The notes under the pieces were generated by a model. The model had not been told where the DNA came from and searched no databases. It worked only from the letters and a program-made list of their open reading frames with translations. Positions 7,026 through 29,489 of a stretch of DNA of 64,000 bases are shown piece by piece. Source of the DNA: a virus; the IMG/VR virus record IMGVR_UViG_3300046318_000171, positions 1 through 64,000 of that record. The stretch is one strand, 5' to 3'. Numbering within the stretch: the first letter of the stretch is position 1; every line of letters begins with the position of its first letter. The translations under genes and the position numbers were made by a program.

Positions 7026-7790
7026 TTAATTACCGAACAATCCCTGTCCACGGTTATTACCTGCTGTACCAAGTAGCTTGGCACGGTTCTTCGCATAATC
7101 TGCCATAGACATATTGTTAATGTCATTTGGTGAGTACTGTCGTGAGTCCGAGTCGTTGTCGAGGGGTCCAGAAGCAGGGCTCGTAATACGAGTTCCTACC
7201 ATTTCCTTGCGACTCTGCTGTGCAACTTGCGCAACCGAGTCGAAGATTTTCGCAGAACGTTCCTTAAGACCAAGGATGCTCTGCTCGATTTCATCCTTAG
7301 AATTTCCAGAAATAAGGTCAATCAGTTCTGGAATGATGCTGTCACGCTCAGCCTCAAGACGCTGCTGGCGGTACTGGCTAAGTTCCTGGAATTCACGCTC
7401 ACGCTCAAGAAGAGCGAAAGCCTTTTCACGGTCCTCACGCTCACGCTTGAGTTCCGCCTGCCATTCCTGTTCCTTCTTTGCAAGAAGGTCACGAACCTCA
7501 AGTTCGGCTTCCTCCTGCTTTTTGCGCTCTGCTGCCGCTTCAGCCTCACGGGCTTGGCGAGCTGCTTTGCGCTCGGCTTCTTTAGCCTCTCGCTCCTGCT
7601 CCTTTGAACGGAGTAGTGCAAGTTCTTCCTGTAGCTTCTCTACCTGAGGATAAAGCTTAGCCTTCTCCTGAGCACGTGCTTTCTGAATTGCTTCAGCCAC
7701 TTTGTCAGTGTTTGGAAGGTAGTTCTCCTCTGCAGGAACTGCTGCAGGTACTTCAGTAACCTCAGTTACTTCTGTGGTGTTTTCATCCAT
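7026..7790 (-). CDS. Capsid scaffolding protein
   Basis: 254 residues, dominated by a highly charged coiled coil from about 35 to 150 (repeated KEQEREAKEAERKAARQ-type heptads), with a short acidic N-terminus and a flexible C-terminus ending GQGLFGN. Phage scaffolds are long, charged, helical proteins encoded between portal and capsid, which fits exactly. No protease motif is visible, so maturation protease activity would have to come from elsewhere or be absent. Confidence 0.85.
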   Translation of the reverse strand: MDENTTEVTEVTEVPAAVPAEENYLPNTDKVAEAIQKARAQEKAKLYPQVEKLQEELALLRSKEQEREAKEAERKAARQAREAEAAAERKKQEEAELEVRDLLAKKEQEWQAELKREREDREKAFALLEREREFQELSQYRQQRLEAERDSIIPELIDLISGNSKDEIEQSILGLKERSAKIFDSVAQVAQQSRKEMVGTRITSPASGPLDNDSDSRQYSPNDINNMSMADYAKNRAKLLGTAGNNRGQGLFGN

Positions 7791-9953: not shown

Positions 9954-10349
9954 CTAGTCGTTTACGACTGTTGGGTTAAGACGCATTGCACGTCCACCCG
10001 AAACAACCTTAGTCTCAACAATCTGCTCTGCGTTCTGTGAGTAAGAACCGTGAGCAAACTCGCCAAGGAAGGTTGGTGCTTCAATCCATGCTGCCGAACC
10101 GACGTGTGCACGCTCTGAGAGAGTCTCAGCAGCTGGCTTCTGCCATACTGGTGCATTACGGTTTGGACGACCAGGAGCGGCTGCGAAGCCGTTCATGATA
10201 CCAACTTGGAAATCGTTTGGTACGTCAGTGTCAGTAGCGACACCCTCTTCGAAACGAAGTGGGCCACGACGCTCTAGATTACCAGCCATTTTGCGCTCGT
10301 AAACTTGAGGTGCACGCTCTGGGAACTGAGGTGTAGGACCGATACCCAT
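9954..10349 (-). CDS. Head-module structural protein, unknown
   Basis: 131 residues, rich in Pro, Arg and Gly with little predicted order (PTPQFPERAPQVYERK at the start, SGGRAMRLNPTVVND at the end). It has an AAGGAG ribosome site. Its place between terminase and portal suggests a virion or packaging accessory protein. No motif was recognised. Confidence 0.75.
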   Translation of the reverse strand: MGIGPTPQFPERAPQVYERKMAGNLERRGPLRFEEGVATDTDVPNDFQVGIMNGFAAAPGRPNRNAPVWQKPAAETLSERAHVGSAAWIEAPTFLGEFAHGSYSQNAEQIVETKVVSGGRAMRLNPTVVND

Positions 10350-10431
10350 GGGGACTCCTTATGTATAGGGAATGGAAAGTCGACTGTTTCCAATACTTAG
10401 TTTCTCGTGTTATTGGGCTTTTTGCACACTG

Positions 10432-10464
10432 AACTCAAACTTTTTAGAAAAACATGTTTGAGTT
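10432..10464 (-). other. Inverted repeat spanning the terminase stop codon
   Basis: A 9-bp perfect stem (AACTCAAAC with GTTTGAGTT) with additional A/T pairing inside overlaps the end of the terminase gene. It is AT-rich and lacks a clear downstream T-run, so it may protect the mRNA 3' end or slow transcription. Confidence 0.4.
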
Positions 10465-12039
10465 GACTTCTACCGACGGCATGACAAGCTCCTGTGTTAG
10501 AGAGCAAGCAATCGCCAAAGAGTCGACAAAGTCATCGTGAGCGTAGGCCTCATCCGGTGCTGCCACCATAAAGTTAGGGCCTTTGTATTGGATTTCGGCA
10601 TCTGTCATCTGCTGGTAGAAACGCTTCCACACACGCAAACGCCTAGTTTTAGCGTGCGCCGGGTAAGACAACGAGCGACGCTGAATGAGTGCCTGCAGGT
10701 GCTTAAACCTCTTGGACTGCTCTGACTGGCTAGAGGTGACAGACACCACTTCTGCACGCCCCATAAGAATCTTAAGGCGCTGGGCCACTGCGTCACCAAC
10801 ACCGTTGGCGTCTACTCCGATTGCCAGAACGTCATAGTTCGAAAGGAAGTTAACAATTTGGAAATACTGCTCTTCCCAGTCATCCCCTTGTAGTTCCAGC
10901 CAGTTGAGTACTCGATGGTCGAAATAGCCAAACTCATCTGGACGGTCCCAGTCAACCCAGACAACTGTGACAACAGTGGAGTCCATCTTTCTAGCAGGGT
11001 CGATTCCGACCACAACAGGGGTTTGGTGCCAGACTTTGACCAGCTCTTGCGAAGTATCACCGAGCTCATCCATGAGTCCACTTGTAACAAACATGCCTCG
11101 TTCAAGAAGCCATTTGCAGTTATACGACATCTGGAACTCATCGGAGTCCTCTCCAATACGTAGCTTTTCTTTAGAAATAAATGTGCCGTAGTTTTCGTTT
11201 ACTTTGGCGACGTCTCTCCAGTCCCATTGGAAGTGATTTTGTTTCTTACCACGGCCTGTTTGGATTCGTTTGTTTAGCTGGATAGACTTGTAGAAGTTGT
11301 TCTTAGATGTGGTAGGAGTACCGGTCTTAACAATGATTCCTGCGTAGTAAGCCAACATCGGAGTAATTGACTTGGCCACTACAAAGTCGTCCGCTTCCTG
11401 GCACTCGTCAATAACTACAAGATGGAACGACTTCGACTCAATCTTTGCACGAGGGTTTGCCGTCATCATGGTCATCATAGAGCCAGAGTTTTTAAGTTTG
11501 ATAGTCTTAGTTACACCGGCAATCTTCTTTGCCTCGTCATCAATCTCCGGGTCACCCAGAACTTCTTGGGCAGTCTCAGAAGTTAGGCGAGTAACAACTC
11601 GGCTAAACAAAGTTTCTGCCTGACCTTCAGTAGGGGCGAATAAGCCCACCCACAAACCATCCTTGTATTTGTCAAGAAGTTTAGGGTAAATCTTAGCCAA
11701 CTTAGGTAGCAGCACCATGAGCATGGCTACTGTGTCAGCTACTGTTTCCGACTTACCAGACTGACGTGAAGCAAGTGCGGTGATTTCGTCACCCTTACCA
11801 ATAAGGACAGCCTCGATAATTCTTCTAGCCAGAGGCTTCTGGTATGGGTGTAGGTCGTGGCCTACCAAGACGTGCATGAATTGCATCATCTTATCGATTA
11901 GACGGTCAACAAACTCTTGGTCAAGTTCGTTCTCATCTTCTTCAAACTCTTCTTCAACTCCGTGGTCTTCTAGATAGAAACTCGGGTTAATTTCTTCAAA
12001 TTGTTGAACGTCGTCTTCTTCGTCGTCGTACTCAAACAT
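10444..12039 (-). CDS. terL: Terminase large subunit
   Basis: 531 residues: the ATP-driven motor that packages DNA into the prohead and cuts the concatemer. The ATPase domain has Walker A SRQSGKSE (91-98), Walker B VVIDEC (208-213) and the coupling motif TGTPTT (about 239). The RNase H-like nuclease domain starts with GIDPARKMDST (D347), continues with IGVDANGVGDA and ends with AHDDFVDSLAIA, giving the expected three acidic positions. The N-terminus has an unusually acidic 45-residue extension. No small terminase was recognised; the small genes just upstream are candidates by position. The start overlaps the upstream stop by TAATG. Confidence 0.95.
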   Translation of the reverse strand: MFEYDDEEDDVQQFEEINPSFYLEDHGVEEEFEEDENELDQEFVDRLIDKMMQFMHVLVGHDLHPYQKPLARRIIEAVLIGKGDEITALASRQSGKSETVADTVAMLMVLLPKLAKIYPKLLDKYKDGLWVGLFAPTEGQAETLFSRVVTRLTSETAQEVLGDPEIDDEAKKIAGVTKTIKLKNSGSMMTMMTANPRAKIESKSFHLVVIDECQEADDFVVAKSITPMLAYYAGIIVKTGTPTTSKNNFYKSIQLNKRIQTGRGKKQNHFQWDWRDVAKVNENYGTFISKEKLRIGEDSDEFQMSYNCKWLLERGMFVTSGLMDELGDTSQELVKVWHQTPVVVGIDPARKMDSTVVTVVWVDWDRPDEFGYFDHRVLNWLELQGDDWEEQYFQIVNFLSNYDVLAIGVDANGVGDAVAQRLKILMGRAEVVSVTSSQSEQSKRFKHLQALIQRRSLSYPAHAKTRRLRVWKRFYQQMTDAEIQYKGPNFMVAAPDEAYAHDDFVDSLAIACSLTQELVMPSVEVNSNMFF

Positions 12040-22496: not shown

Positions 22497-22522
22497 GAAT
22501 TCTTTCCTTTATCTAGGTGGTA

Positions 22523-22786
22523 CTAGTCTAACCGCTTCTTGTTCTTGAAATCTACGTTAATTACTTGCGCCAATTTTTCAGCAGGAACCGGAGCTGCAGG
22601 GTGAGCATCGATTGACCCGTCCTCTACAGCGTAGCAACCTTCATCATGCAGAGGATTACGGTGCATCCAGGTGTGGGCGAAAGGCCTAGCACCCCTAGCC
22701 ACCAAGGCTGGGAGCTGCTTATAGGTAGAAGAAGCGATTAGAGTCTGGCCACAATCAGGGCAAGGGCGTAAAATATCAGCAGTCAT
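22523..22786 (-). CDS. Small zinc-binding protein
   Basis: 87 residues. CPDCG at the N-terminus plus H and C later (MHRNPLHDEGC) could form one zinc site. Similar proteins are frequent early genes of actinophages. It is the second gene of the leftward unit that begins at 23.4 kb. Confidence 0.65.
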   Translation of the reverse strand: MTADILRPCPDCGQTLIASSTYKQLPALVARGARPFAHTWMHRNPLHDEGCYAVEDGSIDAHPAAPVPAEKLAQVINVDFKNKKRLD

Positions 22787-22807
22787 GATTACAGGGGCGT
22801 CCTTAAC

Positions 22808-23410
22808 TTAACCTACACACTTAGCACACTTGGCAGGAGTCCTGTAGATGTTAAACACCCCAGGAGATGCCTGAACCGTCTCAAAACGGTGCGAACCACC
22901 CGAAGCATACTCCGCTTCCGCCTTCTTACCAGCCAAATAGTTACGCATTTTCGTAGTAGTAGACCCGTCATTAGGCACCTGAATGGTCTGGAAGTGCGAA
23001 TCTCGGTGGTCTTCCTTCAAAAAGTTAATAGTCTTATGCAAAGACCAAGAATGAGTGTGACCAACAGAATCCCTGTCCTTCGCATTCAAAAAAGTACGGT
23101 CAGTAGGGAAATCCCCACGAGCAGCATCCTGACGGCGCTGATACGAGCTGCGAGGGTCCATCCAGTAATCAGGGATAGGAATGTTAGAGCGACGCTTACG
23201 AGTACCCTGACGAATCTCCAAATCCTGCTGGTCAACCTTCTTCCAGTAGTTATCACGCTGCGAACGAGCACCAGGGCGGTCCTTGGGCTTCATAGCCGCA
23301 ATTTCCTCAGCAGTACGCTCCTTACGGGGGCGACCCCTACCACGCTTAGGTGCAGGGGCGTCCTCAGGATTACCTGGGGTCGGAGTCTCTTCTTTAGCCA
23401 TAACCACCAT
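22808..23410 (-). CDS. AT-hook-containing DNA-binding-like protein
   Basis: About 200 residues. KRGRGRPRKERT near the N-terminus is a canonical AT-hook (GRP flanked by basic residues), which binds the minor groove of AT-rich DNA. The body is basic and polar, with a CAKC pair at the C-terminus. First gene of the leftward block, divergent from the rightward block. The start context AAATGGTGGTTATG is shared with the ribonucleotide reductase gene, so either the first or the fourth codon (ATG) may be used. Confidence 0.65.
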   Translation of the reverse strand: MVVMAKEETPTPGNPEDAPAPKRGRGRPRKERTAEEIAAMKPKDRPGARSQRDNYWKKVDQQDLEIRQGTRKRRSNIPIPDYWMDPRSSYQRRQDAARGDFPTDRTFLNAKDRDSVGHTHSWSLHKTINFLKEDHRDSHFQTIQVPNDGSTTTKMRNYLAGKKAEAEYASGGSHRFETVQASPGVFNIYRTPAKCAKCVG

Positions 23411-23516
23411 TTTAGGGCTACTGCCTGAAAAATAAAGCACTACCTGTGTTTTTCACCTGACCGTTATCTTTCTGTTATCCATTCTAACCCTAGGGGGGAA
23501 TAATCGACCGCTTATC

Positions 23517-23830
23517 TTGGGACTATCGGCAACGGGCAGACCGCTAGGCGGTCTAGCCACGGCTACGCCGACACTCTCACGCTTCGCCACACTCTCGCCT
23601 AGTCGGGTTTCGTGGCAACTCACCAGCGTGAGTGTTGTCGGTTGTTTGCTCGATTACCGCTTGACGGAGTGGCCACGCTTCGGCGTGCCGTCTGGTGAGG
23701 TTTGGTTAGCCTATGGAGTAATCGTTTGGCTGGCGGGTGAGGTACGCCCGTGAACAAAACACGGGACTGAGTGGTGCAACTCCACTCTCCGCCACGCACT
23801 TAGTGCCGTCTAGCAATCGCTAGGCGAAAA
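23517..23830 (+). ncRNA. Highly structured intergenic region, candidate RNA leader
   Basis: The 440-base divergent gap contains many stable stems: AGACCGC TAG GCGGTCT (23538-23554), a long-range stem of about 15 bp (23568-23583 with 23625-23641) enclosing GCCAC/GTGGC, a UUCG-capped hairpin (CACGC TTCG GCGTG near 23675), GAGTGG/CCACTC (23769-23787) and CTAGC AATC GCTAG (23810-23823). An open frame of 78 codons here (23517-23753) has no ribosome site or protein-like composition and is treated as chance. Could be the 5' leader of the rightward transcript, a separate RNA, or an origin. Confidence 0.5.
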
Positions 23831-23850
23831 CCAATCGAAAGGTACAGATT

Positions 23851-24276
23851 ATGTCTGCACTTACCGCAACACGCACCACCACCACCGCTCGCAAGGGCAT
23901 CACGGTCAAGGTAGTTTCACCTACCGTCATCAAGCAGGCGCAAGCCTATGCAGATGTCCCTACTTGGATGCTCGAAGAGCTGCGAGACGGACTGGCACAG
24001 ATGCGAGAGTCTTGGATGCTCACCAAGGTCGACTTCACCGATGTCGCCAAGAGCCAAGTCAAGAAGGCTCAAATCACCGCTATGGAAGGTGGTAAAGCGA
24101 AAGACCGCTACGACCGCCTTGTACGCCTAGGCAACAAGCACGACGTAGTGTTTACCCGTGTGCTGAACAAGTTCCTTGCAGTCCAAGCAAGCCTTGAAGC
24201 AGCAAACTACGCCCTAGCACAGCGTAAGAACCGAGACGCAAGCCGTCTTGGTAATGGCACCGCCAACCTAGCATAG
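23851..24276 (+). CDS. First gene of the rightward block, unknown
   Basis: 141 residues: a Thr/Ala-rich N-terminus, then charged helices (MLEELRDGLAQMRESWMLTK, VFTRVLNKFLAVQASLEAAN). No family recognised. It is flanked on both sides by structured noncoding DNA and uses high-GC preferred codons, suggesting strong early expression. AAAGG ribosome site 8 bases before ATG. A CCTAGC...GCTAGG hairpin overlaps its stop codon. Confidence 0.7.
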   Translation: MSALTATRTTTTARKGITVKVVSPTVIKQAQAYADVPTWMLEELRDGLAQMRESWMLTKVDFTDVAKSQVKKAQITAMEGGKAKDRYDRLVRLGNKHDVVFTRVLNKFLAVQASLEAANYALAQRKNRDASRLGNGTANLA

Positions 24277-24632
24277 CCAAACGCTAGGAAGCCTGACCGG
24301 AGAGAGAGAACACTCGTCTCCCGCCGGTTCACGACCGAGTCAGGCACGCCAACAGAGCCGTTTCGGCTACTGCTTCCCCCAAGCAAGCCGTAAGCAGTCG
24401 TATGGCCAGATTACAGAGCACCTCCCTCGCCTGTTATCAGGTCATACAAAGCCCTGTGGCAGGGGAGAGAGGGCAGAGACAGGTGTTTGAGTCTATCTAG
24501 TCTCTTATAGATGTTTCTTCTCTCTCTCTCCTCACAAGTAACACCCCAAAGCCCCTCTTACCTAGGGGGGCAAGCCCCCCTGAGACCCCCCGCATAGTCG
24601 GGGCGTTCTTAGGCAAGCCGAAAGGAAGAAAG
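24277..24632 (+). other. Structured gene-free region between the first two rightward genes
   Basis: 356 bases with no convincing ORF but with consecutive hairpins: the three-way junction at 24291-24345; AGCCG TTT CGGCT; ACTGCTT...AAGCAGT; CCCTG TGG CAGGG; a pyrimidine-rich tract of alternating CT near 24520; AGGGGGG CAAG CCCCCCT (24564-24581); and CCCCG...CGGGG (24587-24603) followed by CGTTCTT, which might be a weak terminator. Such a density of stems suggests stable RNA products. Confidence 0.55.
24291..24345 (+). ncRNA. Three-way-junction RNA candidate
   Basis: Closing stem GCCTGAC/GTCAGGC (7 bp), second stem CGGAGA/TCTCCCG with a loop of alternating purines, and third stem CGGT TCACG ACCG that resembles a T-arm. 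The 55-base element looks tRNA-like but lacks an anticodon arm, so it is not a tRNA. Class unknown. Confidence 0.45.
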
Positions 24633-24806
24633 ATGACTGAAAAGCCAGTCTTCACAGCAGAAGAGCTGCTCACCATCTACGAGATAGCAAGCCTGTTCGA
24701 CAAGAGCAAGCCAGGCTACGCAGATGTCAAAGACATCGAGCCAATCAAGGAGAAGATTCAGGGTTGGGTAAGCCGTGTCTCAGACGGAAAGATGGTCCTC
24801 CGATGA
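24633..24806 (+). CDS. Small hypothetical protein
   Basis: 57 residues, charged and helical (FTAEELLTIYEIASLFDKSK). AAAGGAAG ribosome site. Starts the continuous run of tiny rightward genes after the structured gap. Confidence 0.65.
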   Translation: MTEKPVFTAEELLTIYEIASLFDKSKPGYADVKDIEPIKEKIQGWVSRVSDGKMVLR

Positions 24807-24825
24807 GCAAGAAGAAAGGAAAGCC

Positions 24826-25128
24826 GTGTTTAAGCAAAAAGTAGAGAAAGACTTCATTCTCGAAGTCCTAGGTGAAGACAGAGAAGTTATCCTCACCATA
24901 GATACTTGGGAAGAAGCCGTCAAGTATGCGAAAAAGCACCTTGACAACAGCGGTCAAAGACTGAATCTCGAAGCACCTAAGCGTGTAGAGATACGCACAG
25001 TGTCGTTCTACATCTGCAAAGGATGCCGTCGAGAAGTCAAGACAGACACTAGCAATCTCAAAGGGATTGTCGGTATGTCTATGTTCCTGTGTGCAAGATG
25101 CACCCTCGAAGCAATACAGAACCTCTAA
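24826..25128 (+). CDS. Zinc-binding small protein
   Basis: 100 residues from a GTG with AAAGGAAA upstream; a GTG further upstream at 24775 would overlap the previous gene. C-terminal half has CKGCRREVKTD and CARC, a two-CxxC zinc ribbon; the N-terminal half is alpha/beta (ILEVLGEDREVILTIDTWEE). Function unknown. Confidence 0.7.
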   Translation: MFKQKVEKDFILEVLGEDREVILTIDTWEEAVKYAKKHLDNSGQRLNLEAPKRVEIRTVSFYICKGCRREVKTDTSNLKGIVGMSMFLCARCTLEAIQNL

Positions 25129-26301: not shown

Positions 26302-26463
26302 ATGGGTCGTAAGAATCACACGCACACCAAGCCTCAGGGACACAAGACCCGCAAGGCTGTAGCGGTATCAGTAGAAGCACCAGCACCACGCAAGCCAGCA
26401 CCAACTAAGGCGTTGCGTGTAGGTCAGGTATCTTCTGAGTGGCAGTCAAGGCGTGGTGCATAG
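26302..26463 (+). CDS. Small basic protein
   Basis: 53 residues, His/Lys/Pro-rich start (GRKNHTHTKPQGHKTRK) and an Ala/Pro-rich middle; likely disordered and nucleic-acid-binding. AAGGAG site. The next gene starts right after its stop. Confidence 0.65.
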   Translation: MGRKNHTHTKPQGHKTRKAVAVSVEAPAPRKPAPTKALRVGQVSSEWQSRRGA

Positions 26464-26610
26464 ATGACCACAGCCTACAAAGTCTTAGCGTATGCAGGAG
26501 TCGCAGTGATGTGGCTTGCTGTATTCGCAAGTGGTGTTGTGCCCCTTATCTTGGGTGCAACACTAGCGGGACTAGGCACAAGCCTAGTTCTAAGTCAACT
26601 AGATAAATAG
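26464..26610 (+). CDS. Small membrane protein before the amidoligase
   Basis: 48 residues, almost entirely hydrophobic with two likely helices (VLAYAGVAVMWLAVFASGVV and LILGATLAGLGTSLVL). Starts immediately after the preceding stop and ends nine bases before the amidoligase ATG, so it belongs to the same operon. It could localise that pathway to the membrane, but this is only a positional inference. Confidence 0.65.
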   Translation: MTTAYKVLAYAGVAVMWLAVFASGVVPLILGATLAGLGTSLVLSQLDK

Positions 26611-26618
26611 GAGGAACA

Positions 26619-28382
26619 ATGCCAACTATCCCAGACCTAACGGTCGAAGATGTTGTCGCTGACCCACAAGTCGGTGTAAGTGTTCGGCATCTGCTGAACA
26701 ACTGGCGTGGGTCACAAGCCCGTTTGTCTGTCTATGGTAAGACAGACGCACGCATCCTTAGTGCAGCGTGGGACAGCCCACGTGATGTAAGTTCTAAGGA
26801 AGATGCAGTTGCTTTCGCTACTTGGATTACCAAGTTGTGGGACCACAGCAACCACATCACCAGCAACATTGAGTTGTTCTTGCCAATGCTGTCGTTGAAC
26901 ACAGACGATAGCGTGTCTATCCGCCACGCAGGTATCCAATCTACGTGGATGCGAGATGACATTGGCAACAGCGACATCATTCGCATCAAGGTAGATGCTA
27001 TCGCCAAGTTGTTTGGCGACCAAGCCAAGCTGCTGAGTTACGAAGAGTCGTCTGCACTCGGCTACAACAGCGACCGTGCAGTGTTCAGGTTCGTCAACAG
27101 CGACAAGTTTGCTGATGACTACATTGCAGACTCAAGTCAGCCGCTTATGGTTCGCACCAAGTGGTTGGCTGAGCGCAAGGCTTGGCAAGATGCAATCAGT
27201 GGTATAGGCTATTCGTCAGTGCAACCTACTGCTGACGGCAAGAGCCTGCTGTATGTGATGCCGTGCAACTCACGGTCGGTCAAGTCAATCGGCTTGTCAA
27301 TGTACCGCAGAGTTGCTGCTGGCATTGTTGGTATGAGCAATCGCCCAACATCAGCAGACCTCTGGCGTCACTTCCGCAACGAAGTCATTCGTCTAGAAGC
27401 ACGTGCCAATGGCACAGACGAAGCGGTGTTGCAGCAGCTCAAGTACAACAACTACGAGCAGTTCTGGTCCAAGATGAAGCAGGACAAGAAAGAGCGAGCC
27501 AAGGTTGTTGACCAAGCGGCTGTCGAAGCAATGTGGGCAACCATCCCAATTGCTGAAGCAGGCACCGAGTCAAGTCGTGGCTGGGGTATCGAAGTCGAGA
27601 CAGTTCGTGCTAACCAGACATCACGACCACGTGGTTGGGAAGATGTGTACGACGGCTCACTGCCAGAGTCCGGTGGTGGTTGCAACTGTGGTTGCGACGA
27701 CTGCTGCAATGGTGACCACTGCGACTACGAAGATGACGACTGCTTCGCCAACAGTGGTGGTGGTGAGTCAAGAGAGTTCGTCTCACCTATCCTGCGGTAC
27801 TTCAACAGCAATGGTCTGCGTCAGTTGTGCGGTGACCTTGGTGATGTCGAGCAATCTACAGCCCCAGGTATCCACGTTCACGTTGGTGCCGAAGACCTGA
27901 CAGTCACAGACGTAGCCCGTGTGCTGTTTGCCTATGGCGTAGTTGCTCCGTTCATCCAGCCGCTGTATCACCGCAAGGTGTTCGGTTACTGCCAAGAGAT
28001 GCCCGGCAACAATGTCCAGTGGTGGCTGACTGCTGCTAAGCGTCGTCTACAAGAGACAGGCAGAGTGCCACGACCTGCTGACATCTGCCACGAGCAGCCC
28101 GTCAACCGCTACCAAGATGTGAACACTCACGCCTTGGCTGCACACCAGACCCTAGAGTTCCGTGCTATGGGTCCGTTCTACAACTACGAGCACCTAGTCC
28201 GTTGGGCTTGGTTCTGCCGAGAGATGTTGAATGTATCCCGACTCAACCTAGACCAGCGTGTCTGGACTAGTTGCGAGTCACTCACTGATGTCATCAATGT
28301 ACTACGCAAGTATGGCTCAGAGTTCCCAACCGACAAGTCGCTGGCAGACACGCCAGCCGACACAAACACATACGAAGAATAG
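26619..28382 (+). CDS. Amidoligase-2-like (COOH-NH2 ligase) enzyme
   Basis: 587 residues, by far the largest protein of the rightward block. The C-terminal half shows the amidoligase_2 signature: WGIEVE (322-327), DGSL (345-348), EFVSP (386-390), GIHVHVG (417-423) and the late HQTLEFRAMG (509-518). These belong to the glutamine-synthetase-like COOH-NH2 ligases, which join a carboxylate to an amine using ATP. A Cys-rich loop (355-375, seven Cys) is inserted between the DGSL and EFVSP motifs and may bind metal. The first 300 residues are a novel helical domain. It is followed at once by a class II glutamine amidotransferase, a pairing reported for this ligase clan. Substrate unknown. Confidence 0.8.
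   Translation: MPTIPDLTVEDVVADPQVGVSVRHLLNNWRGSQARLSVYGKTDARILSAAWDSPRDVSSKEDAVAFATWITKLWDHSNHITSNIELFLPMLSLNTDDSVSIRHAGIQSTWMRDDIGNSDIIRIKVDAIAKLFGDQAKLLSYEESSALGYNSDRAVFRFVNSDKFADDYIADSSQPLMVRTKWLAERKAWQDAISGIGYSSVQPTADGKSLLYVMPCNSRSVKSIGLSMYRRVAAGIVGMSNRPTSADLWRHFRNEVIRLEARANGTDEAVLQQLKYNNYEQFWSKMKQDKKERAKVVDQAAVEAMWATIPIAEAGTESSRGWGIEVETVRANQTSRPRGWEDVYDGSLPESGGGCNCGCDDCCNGDHCDYEDDDCFANSGGGESREFVSPILRYFNSNGLRQLCGDLGDVEQSTAPGIHVHVGAEDLTVTDVARVLFAYGVVAPFIQPLYHRKVFGYCQEMPGNNVQWWLTAAKRRLQETGRVPRPADICHEQPVNRYQDVNTHALAAHQTLEFRAMGPFYNYEHLVRWAWFCREMLNVSRLNLDQRVWTSCESLTDVINVLRKYGSEFPTDKSLADTPADTNTYEE
28341..28368 (+). promoter_or_regulatory. Hairpin plus CCGACACAAACA element
   Basis: CTGGC AGACAC GCCAG is followed directly by CCGACACAAACA, ending 24 bases before the amidotransferase start, within the last codons of the amidoligase. 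One copy of the recurrent element. Confidence 0.5.
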
Positions 28383-28391
28383 GAGATACTT

Positions 28392-29489
28392 ATGTGTGGT
28401 ATCGCAGGCTTTAGCCTAAGTAAGACCAGCAAGATAAAACCTCGACAGTTGTCGAACGCTTTGCTGGGTGCAATCGAGGACCGTGGCGGTATGGCTTCGG
28501 GCTTCGCTTGGCAAGACAATGAGCATATGGGGTTCTACAAAGCAGCCGTCACCGGCTCTACCCTGTCGCTCAAGACAATGCCAAAGGATGTGCGTAATGT
28601 TATCTTGCACACCCGCCTAGCCACTCACGGCTCAACCAATGACAACCGCAATAATCACCCAGTGCTCTCGCCTAACGAGGACATTGCGTTGGTTCACAAC
28701 GGAGTCATTTACAACCACAACCAAGTACGCAATCAGTTGGGTATGACACTGCCAGATGTAGATACAAGTGTTATCCCTGCAATCATTGAGCAGCGTGGGC
28801 TTGACTCTATCAACGAGTTGGATGGTGATGCCGCAATTGCGTGGTTCAACCGCAAGGAGCACAACACTATGCACCTTGCACGCTACAAGCACTCACCGCT
28901 AGTTATGGCTCAGGTAGAAGACGGGTCATTCATCTTCTGCTCAACCGAGCAGTTGCTATGGCGTGTGCTTGTCAGTATGGACCTAATGCCAACGTGGATG
29001 GAGACAGCCAGCGAGCTGGACTACTTCACCATCCGTGATGGCGTAGTGATGAGCAAGTCGATGTTGCCTGAACCTAAGTACAACGACTACTCGTACGACT
29101 ACTCGTACTTCCGCCACCAGACAGCCGGTGCCAAGCCAAAGACTATCGGGTCTTCGTTTGCGTACTACGACGAGTGGGACGACGACTACACCCCGTATTC
29201 GTTCAACGGTAAGAACACCGACCGTGATGACGAGTTCGACAATGACGACGACTATGCCGAAGACGACTTCAACACTGACAATGTTGTGCCGCTCAATCGT
29301 GCAAAGTTCTACACCGTCATCTACGACACCATCATCAAAGACCACGAGTACATCTACTACTACGGCGACGAAGAGAAGACGTGGAAAGACGAGTTGTTCA
29401 TCTGGGCTAACGAGAACTACATCAAGTTAGTTGACTACGGAGTAATCGACAAGGGTGAGTTGCTCTCAACCACTGACGAGTTGTTCTAG
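28392..29489 (+). CDS. Class II glutamine amidotransferase
   Basis: 365 residues. The N-terminal Ntn-hydrolase GATase-II domain has nucleophile Cys2 (MCGIAGF), arginine in HTRLATHG (73-80), oxyanion motif HNGVIYN (102-108) and GDAA (145-148). It releases ammonia from glutamine. No synthetase or isomerase domain is fused; instead an Asp/Tyr-rich tail (about 230-300) precedes a small C-terminal domain. Acting with the adjacent amidoligase, it could supply ammonia for an amide product, or have the amidoligase's chemistry reversed. The operon spacing is 9 bases with AGGAG. Confidence 0.9.
   Translation: MCGIAGFSLSKTSKIKPRQLSNALLGAIEDRGGMASGFAWQDNEHMGFYKAAVTGSTLSLKTMPKDVRNVILHTRLATHGSTNDNRNNHPVLSPNEDIALVHNGVIYNHNQVRNQLGMTLPDVDTSVIPAIIEQRGLDSINELDGDAAIAWFNRKEHNTMHLARYKHSPLVMAQVEDGSFIFCSTEQLLWRVLVSMDLMPTWMETASELDYFTIRDGVVMSKSMLPEPKYNDYSYDYSYFRHQTAGAKPKTIGSSFAYYDEWDDDYTPYSFNGKNTDRDDEFDNDDDYAEDDFNTDNVVPLNRAKFYTVIYDTIIKDHEYIYYYGDEEKTWKDELFIWANENYIKLVDYGVIDKGELLSTTDELF

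Follow-up and report, generated by a model that had tools for sequence, protein, structure and literature searches.

A probable structured leader RNA in the early control region of an uncultivated phage and its relatives

The control region of this phage probably gives rise to a structured early leader RNA, a series of hairpins that would be made from a conserved upstream element (E1) ahead of the first rightward gene (gene 1). The window that we analysed comprises 64 kb out of a 91,238-bp virus record, and positions are those of the window unless a locus is named. Its terminase shares about 50% identity with those of Streptomyces phage BRock and related phages; with the terminases of many uncultivated viral contigs the identity is 78-89%. 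Genes run leftward from 23401 (late) and rightward from 23851 (early), labels that we assigned from gene content rather than expression data. The initial annotation had confined the structured feature to 23517-23830. This span is too narrow: because E1 lies directly upstream and a better-folding stretch follows gene 1, the feature should be taken as extending over about 23411-24640, with gene 1 in its middle.

Positions 22501-25000 gave no DNA match among 50,697 phage records, and neither the leader, nor gene 1, nor the leftward neighbour has a direct homologue in the phages, viral contigs and 35 related records searched. The HSP20 and glutamine-amidotransferase genes led to no close relatives either. 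Since the immediate neighbourhood at first gave no DNA or protein relative, control regions were compared by synteny, using the corresponding stretches of related records. An amidoligase/amidotransferase pair pointed to one record in which the genes are arranged as in the window (L002/G001). The two genes, one amidoligase-like and the other for a class II glutamine amidotransferase, lie in the early block of the window (26619-29489) and are kept as a pair in L002, L003 and L004.

The leader in the window

The leader, roughly 330 nt of serial hairpins, and the start of the early operon contain the following features:

23499-23850, + strand: structured 5' leader of gene 1, non-coding (fold z, syntenic leaders in relatives)
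23538-23544/23548-23554, + strand: hairpin AGACCGC-UAG-GCGGUCU, 7 bp with a 3-nt loop (sequence)
23568-23583/23625-23641, + strand: long-range stem of about 14 bp, interrupted by a small internal loop (fold, inverted repeat I6)
23586-23590/23612-23616, + strand: GCCAC/GUGGC, inside the long-range stem (fold)
23663-23692, + strand: hairpin GACGG-CCACGC-UUCG-GCGUG-CCGUC (fold)
23731-23794, + strand: tRNA-like three-way junction, suggestive only (own scan, fold)
23747-23765, + strand: stem CCCGUG/CACGGG (sequence, fold)
23769-23787, + strand: stem GAGUGG/CCACUC (sequence, fold)
23796-23806, + strand: stem GCAC/GUGC, additional to those first noted (sequence, fold)
23807-23826, + strand: last hairpin, directly ahead of the ribosome site and likewise additional, CGUCUAGC-AAUC-GCUAGGCG (CUAGC-AAUC-GCUAG; comparison with relatives)
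23837-23842, + strand: ribosome-binding site GAAAGG of gene 1 (sequence)
23851-24276, + strand: gene 1, the first rightward gene, encoding a 141-aa protein (ORF)

Sequence, folding and an inverted-repeat search place every stem named in the initial annotation where it had been described. The 78-codon ORF (23517-23753, TTG start) indeed lacks a ribosome site, as had been remarked, and has no homologue in the compared loci of relatives. The product of gene 1 has no Pfam match and marginal PHROG matches only.

Taken alone, the fold of the window is only moderately significant and is weak evidence by itself. Depending on the span chosen, the leader has a z score of about -2.4 to -2.8. For 23500-23850 it is -2.4, with 1 of 100 shuffles folding as well; for the 314 nt originally delimited it is -2.8, a value that 9% of same-size windows in the genome equal or beat. 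Owing to the high GC content, the raw folding energy of these 314 nt ranks in the top 1% of same-size windows. The 160 nt that fold best (23521-23680) reach z -4.0, rank 25 of 1598 windows. Folding of both strands, proposed as a check in the initial annotation, put the + strand below the shuffled energy (z about -2.5) but disclosed no strand bias in the window: the complement folds almost equally well and the difference is practically nil. The strongest fold signal of the window lies elsewhere, at 26691-27004 (z -6.4, on the complement too), in a region (26377-27004) that covers the short ORFs ahead of the amidoligase gene and the beginning of that gene; the signal has no obvious cause.

Elements E1 and E2

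E1 was discovered by comparing the control regions of related records. Its consensus is GGCTACTGCC-N15-CAACCRTG-N5-CACCTGG and, across relatives, it reads without gaps as TTTNGGCTACTGCC, 15-16 bases, CAACCRTG, CACCTGG and a TTAAnGGT-like block, which in many members is followed by a run of G. In the window it consists of:

23411-23498, + strand: E1, probable early promoter/operator (matrix score, recurrence in contigs)
23416-23425, + strand: block GGCTACTGCC (sequence)
23441-23448, + strand: block TACCTGTG (sequence)
23454-23460, + strand: block CACCTGA, the version of the window (sequence)
up to 23498, + strand: end of E1, TCTAACCC-T-AGGGGGG (sequence)

A position weight matrix built from 47 relatives scores 21.2 at 23411, against -16.6 for the second-best site within the 64-kb window and -12.1 for the best site in shuffled windows. 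A scan of a viral contig collection for E1 gave matches in 80 contigs, of which about 75 are genuine, and wherever the orientation was checked the element points toward the early genes. In BRock, the nearest cultured relative by terminase, GGCTACTGCC is absent from the 91.5 of 112.5 kb examined. We looked for covarying structure in 54 E1 sequences and found none, which speaks against E1 as an RNA structure. Given that it is conserved without such structure, E1 resembles a linear site; an early promoter that carries operator boxes would be the simplest reading. A simple scan detected no sigma-70-type promoter there. We infer that transcription of the early strand would start at or just after E1, and that a non-coding leader of the early rightward operon would thus precede gene 1.

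Beyond gene 1 lies a second structured stretch with an element related to E1:

24277-24632, + strand: second non-coding structured stretch, which holds E2 (folding)
24361-24443, + strand: E2, TTTCGGCTACTGC ... GTAAGCAGTCGTATGGCCAGAT ... TGTTATCAGGT (position, blocks common to relatives)

These 355 nt after gene 1 fold better than the region originally annotated (24278-24640: z -6.25, none of 100 shuffles as good), and the corresponding stretches in relatives have z scores of -2.9 to -7.3. Within it, 24461-24532 forms an imperfect hairpin with 35-nt arms. Matches of Rfam microRNA families at 24456-24535 were rejected as chance, arising from this CT-rich hairpin. The E2 site is the best matrix match in the window, yet it does not score above all shuffles, and its assignment depends on where it lies and on the blocks it shares with relatives rather than on the matrix score. 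In phages organised like the window E2 is located after gene 1, and in the relatives of this class it contains a hairpin. In the majority class of E1 phages E2 follows E1 by about 200 bp, with no gene between. In members of the majority class (L122, L139, L146, L176 and most E1 contigs) the first early gene is preceded by roughly 1-1.2 kb that holds no convincing gene.

Two related elements on the early strand that bracket the leader and gene 1, with structured RNA after both, could suggest RNA-based antitermination or attenuation, in which E1, E2 and the hairpins act on RNA polymerase. The put sites of HK022, paired-hairpin RNA antiterminators that suppress termination, are comparable as RNA elements of an early operon, present in more than one copy and on the transcribed strand. 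However, E1 is not a conserved hairpin and has no covarying RNA structure, the lengths differ, and a search of the + strand from E1 to gene 1 gave no intrinsic terminator. We consider such a mechanism improbable.

Leaders of related phages

The reading of the region as a leader RNA is better supported by the relatives than by the window itself. Eleven relatives have leaders of 250-590 nt between E1 and gene 1 that are largely unrelated in sequence. Their z scores range from -9 to -11 in six (L125, L130, L136, L190, L198 and L137) and from -3.3 to -6.4 in five (L128, L161, L091, L096 and L095), compared with -2.5 in the window. The leader and the stretch after gene 1 are among the most structured parts of each locus tested. 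Measured against shuffles, all 12 leaders, that of the window included, fold better on the early strand than on its complement.

Covariation was tested on a sequence-only alignment of the five leaders that could be aligned, to which the window was not alignable. In two helices 99% of cells are paired, against 74% in shuffles, and both sides have changed in 17 of 20 pairs; when the partner is slid by 1-3 columns, pairing drops to 21-42%. Applied unsupervised to the same alignment, RNAalifold returned 33 consensus pairs, 28 of them with double changes. The last hairpin has counterparts in relatives with an AAYC or AUUC loop and different stem sequences. Across seven leaders (the window included), 66 of 70 cells are paired, with 26 double changes, a comparison weaker than the alignment test because the hairpins were chosen by eye. 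These cells were counted by script, since MAFFT misaligned the isolated short hairpins. Of the window's own hairpins, the last is the one for which covariation could be assessed, the relatives being too distant for the others.

Could this be GC-rich spacer DNA that folds well through composition? The window alone would allow it, with a z of only -2.5 to -2.8 that 9% of equal windows match, but the same position in relatives reaches z -11 with covariation, and the E1 anchor and the last hairpin are common to the window and its relatives. Chance is a poor candidate here and, for the leader group as a whole, it is disfavoured. The RNA-like structure described in the initial annotation therefore withstands both the comparison with shuffles and the covariation in relatives, although the window on its own remains weak evidence.

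The window shares with its relatives the position of the leader, the E1 anchor and the last hairpin. Genes for proteins of 119-209 aa occupy the position of gene 1 in the relatives; none shows significant sequence similarity to gene 1 of the window, and a comparison of the L198 protein, modelled with AlphaFold (pLDDT 77), with the PDB gave no significant match. The order E1, hairpin-rich leader, gene 1 (119-209 aa) and E2 is found in the window as well, E2 being placed by position and shared blocks.

The hairpins might serve purely in cis, governing translation of gene 1 or shielding the 5' end of the mRNA, and have no role as a free RNA. In several members the last hairpin lies just ahead of the ribosome site, and in L125, L130, L136, L190 and L198 the start codon of gene 1 is almost wholly paired (unpaired probability 0.00-0.01). 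The hairpins that bury the AUG in these five leaders differ from each other in a compensatory manner (e.g. CUAUGGC/GCCAUAG vs GCGAUG/CAUCGC). In the window, however, the ribosome site and the AUG are as accessible as those of an average gene (unpaired 0.54 and 0.72; genome background 0.51). Moreover, 250-590 nt is long for a simple translation switch, and in most E1 phages E2 follows E1 with no gene in between. A role restricted to cis seems possible but rather unlikely.

The initial annotation had proposed an early leader RNA, a regulatory ncRNA or a replication origin. The leaders of relatives, their compensatory changes, the strand preference and the upstream E1 favour the first two. An origin, or another DNA-level structure such as cruciforms or initiator binding sites, would suit a divergent and non-coding region, and visual inspection showed five CAGCGAAC-type repeats in the control region of L095 (about 10050-10560). 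Nevertheless, an iteron search of the window region found none, cumulative GC skew, the check suggested for an origin, has no extremum at 23.5 kb, and the preference of the early strand across the leader group points to RNA. We regard an origin as highly improbable. The five direct repeats of L095, CAGCGAACTCTCAGA-like, resemble operators or iterons.

tRNA-like shapes and comparison with known RNAs

The three-way junction at 23731-23794 combines an acceptor-like stem (GGCGG/CCGCC), an arm (CCCGUG/CACGGG) and a T-arm-like hairpin (GAGUGG-UGCAACU-CCACUC), with no D arm. Apart from a real tRNA-Asn it is the only T-arm-plus-acceptor match in the window. Neither ARAGORN nor Rfam calls it a tRNA, and the Tymo_tRNA-like model matches it below threshold (E 0.19). 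In L002 a T-arm-like hairpin with an acceptor-like stem closing it (7429-7481) is weakly touched by the tmRNA model. The shapes of the window and L002 sit just before the last hairpin, and those of L130 and L198 after E2. Counts of such shapes are only slightly above those in shuffles, and because they barely exceed chance we keep a tRNA-like module as a suggested trait of the leader group, a lead only.

Rfam searches of the window brought only a tRNA to the gathering threshold, and in the loci of twelve relatives the only matches are genes for tRNA and tmRNA, which lie outside the leaders. A gene of about 80 nt in one of these loci (L095:7221-7303, - strand; G018:87220-87302) is spanned end to end by the Rfam tmRNA model (64.6 bits) and has the tRNA-like domain only, the mRNA-like part being missing. 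Similar genes of about 80 nt occur at L092:1555-1633, L091:4910-4988 and L101:3181-3259, and all may possibly be a "mini-tmRNA" of these phages. A related phage encodes a full tmRNA with the tag ATQNAYALAA (L089:4564-4854, - strand; G007:32561-32853).

YrlA Y RNAs are bacterial RNAs that mimic tRNA, and a linked Ro60/TROVE protein is expected with them. The putative tRNA-like modules at 23731-23794 and in L002 (7429-7481) resemble them in this respect. However, the TROVE protein (PF05731) is absent from the 91-kb record (G000) and 15 related records, in a search in which a control genome was positive, and there is no Rfam match. The Y RNA reading was consequently rejected. GOLLD and ROOL (PMC12286853) are likewise non-coding, highly structured and found in phages and lake metagenomes, but their Rfam models match neither the window nor the loci of the twelve relatives, and here the RNA would be an early mRNA leader of 250-590 nt. 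No RNA catalogue lists such a leader RNA, and no Rfam family matches it.

The closest parallel is the leader downstream of Pleft in L5, D29 and StarStuff (PMC5712189), also from the kin of actinobacterial phages and with hundreds of non-coding bases before the first early gene. In L5/D29 an abundant, processed transcript of about 500 nt lies between Pleft and the first gene; it is the most abundant transcript, stable, and toxic to the host (PMC5712189). The window has the same layout, with E1 at 23411-23498 as the putative promoter, gene 1 at 23851 and no conserved ORF between. Part of the leader region of D29, which we used for a fold comparison with this system, folds with z -5.8. The two are not similar in DNA, and abundance, processing and toxicity are demonstrated for the L5/D29 RNA whereas the leader of the window is known from sequence. 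L5 also has repressor operator/stoperator sites, from which E1 and E2 differ in sequence and in being usually present in one copy each.

We propose that selection would keep a folded RNA whose sequence turns over almost completely, while the hairpins, E1 and the last hairpin persist and, where leaders are alignable, the order of hairpins is kept. By analogy with L5/D29, the leader RNA would most likely be double in nature, serving both as the mRNA leader of gene 1 and as a stable, possibly processed, free RNA. A bolder version, which we offer as speculation with a modest chance of being right, is a hitherto unrecognised, fast-evolving class of early RNAs in which tRNA-like modules recur and which would act on the host in trans, with E1 and E2 as dedicated early control elements. 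Conceivable targets include ribonucleases, RNA polymerase and defences that handle tRNA.

Very few phages are known to have a non-coding early leader RNA, and even that of L5/D29 still calls for a functional explanation. With the promoter-like E1 anchor as a marker, the early control region can be recognised throughout this phage group, and dozens of homologous control regions can be gathered from uncultivated phages. The regions collected show selection on RNA structure while the sequence changes, and this provides a comparative handle on the role of the RNA.
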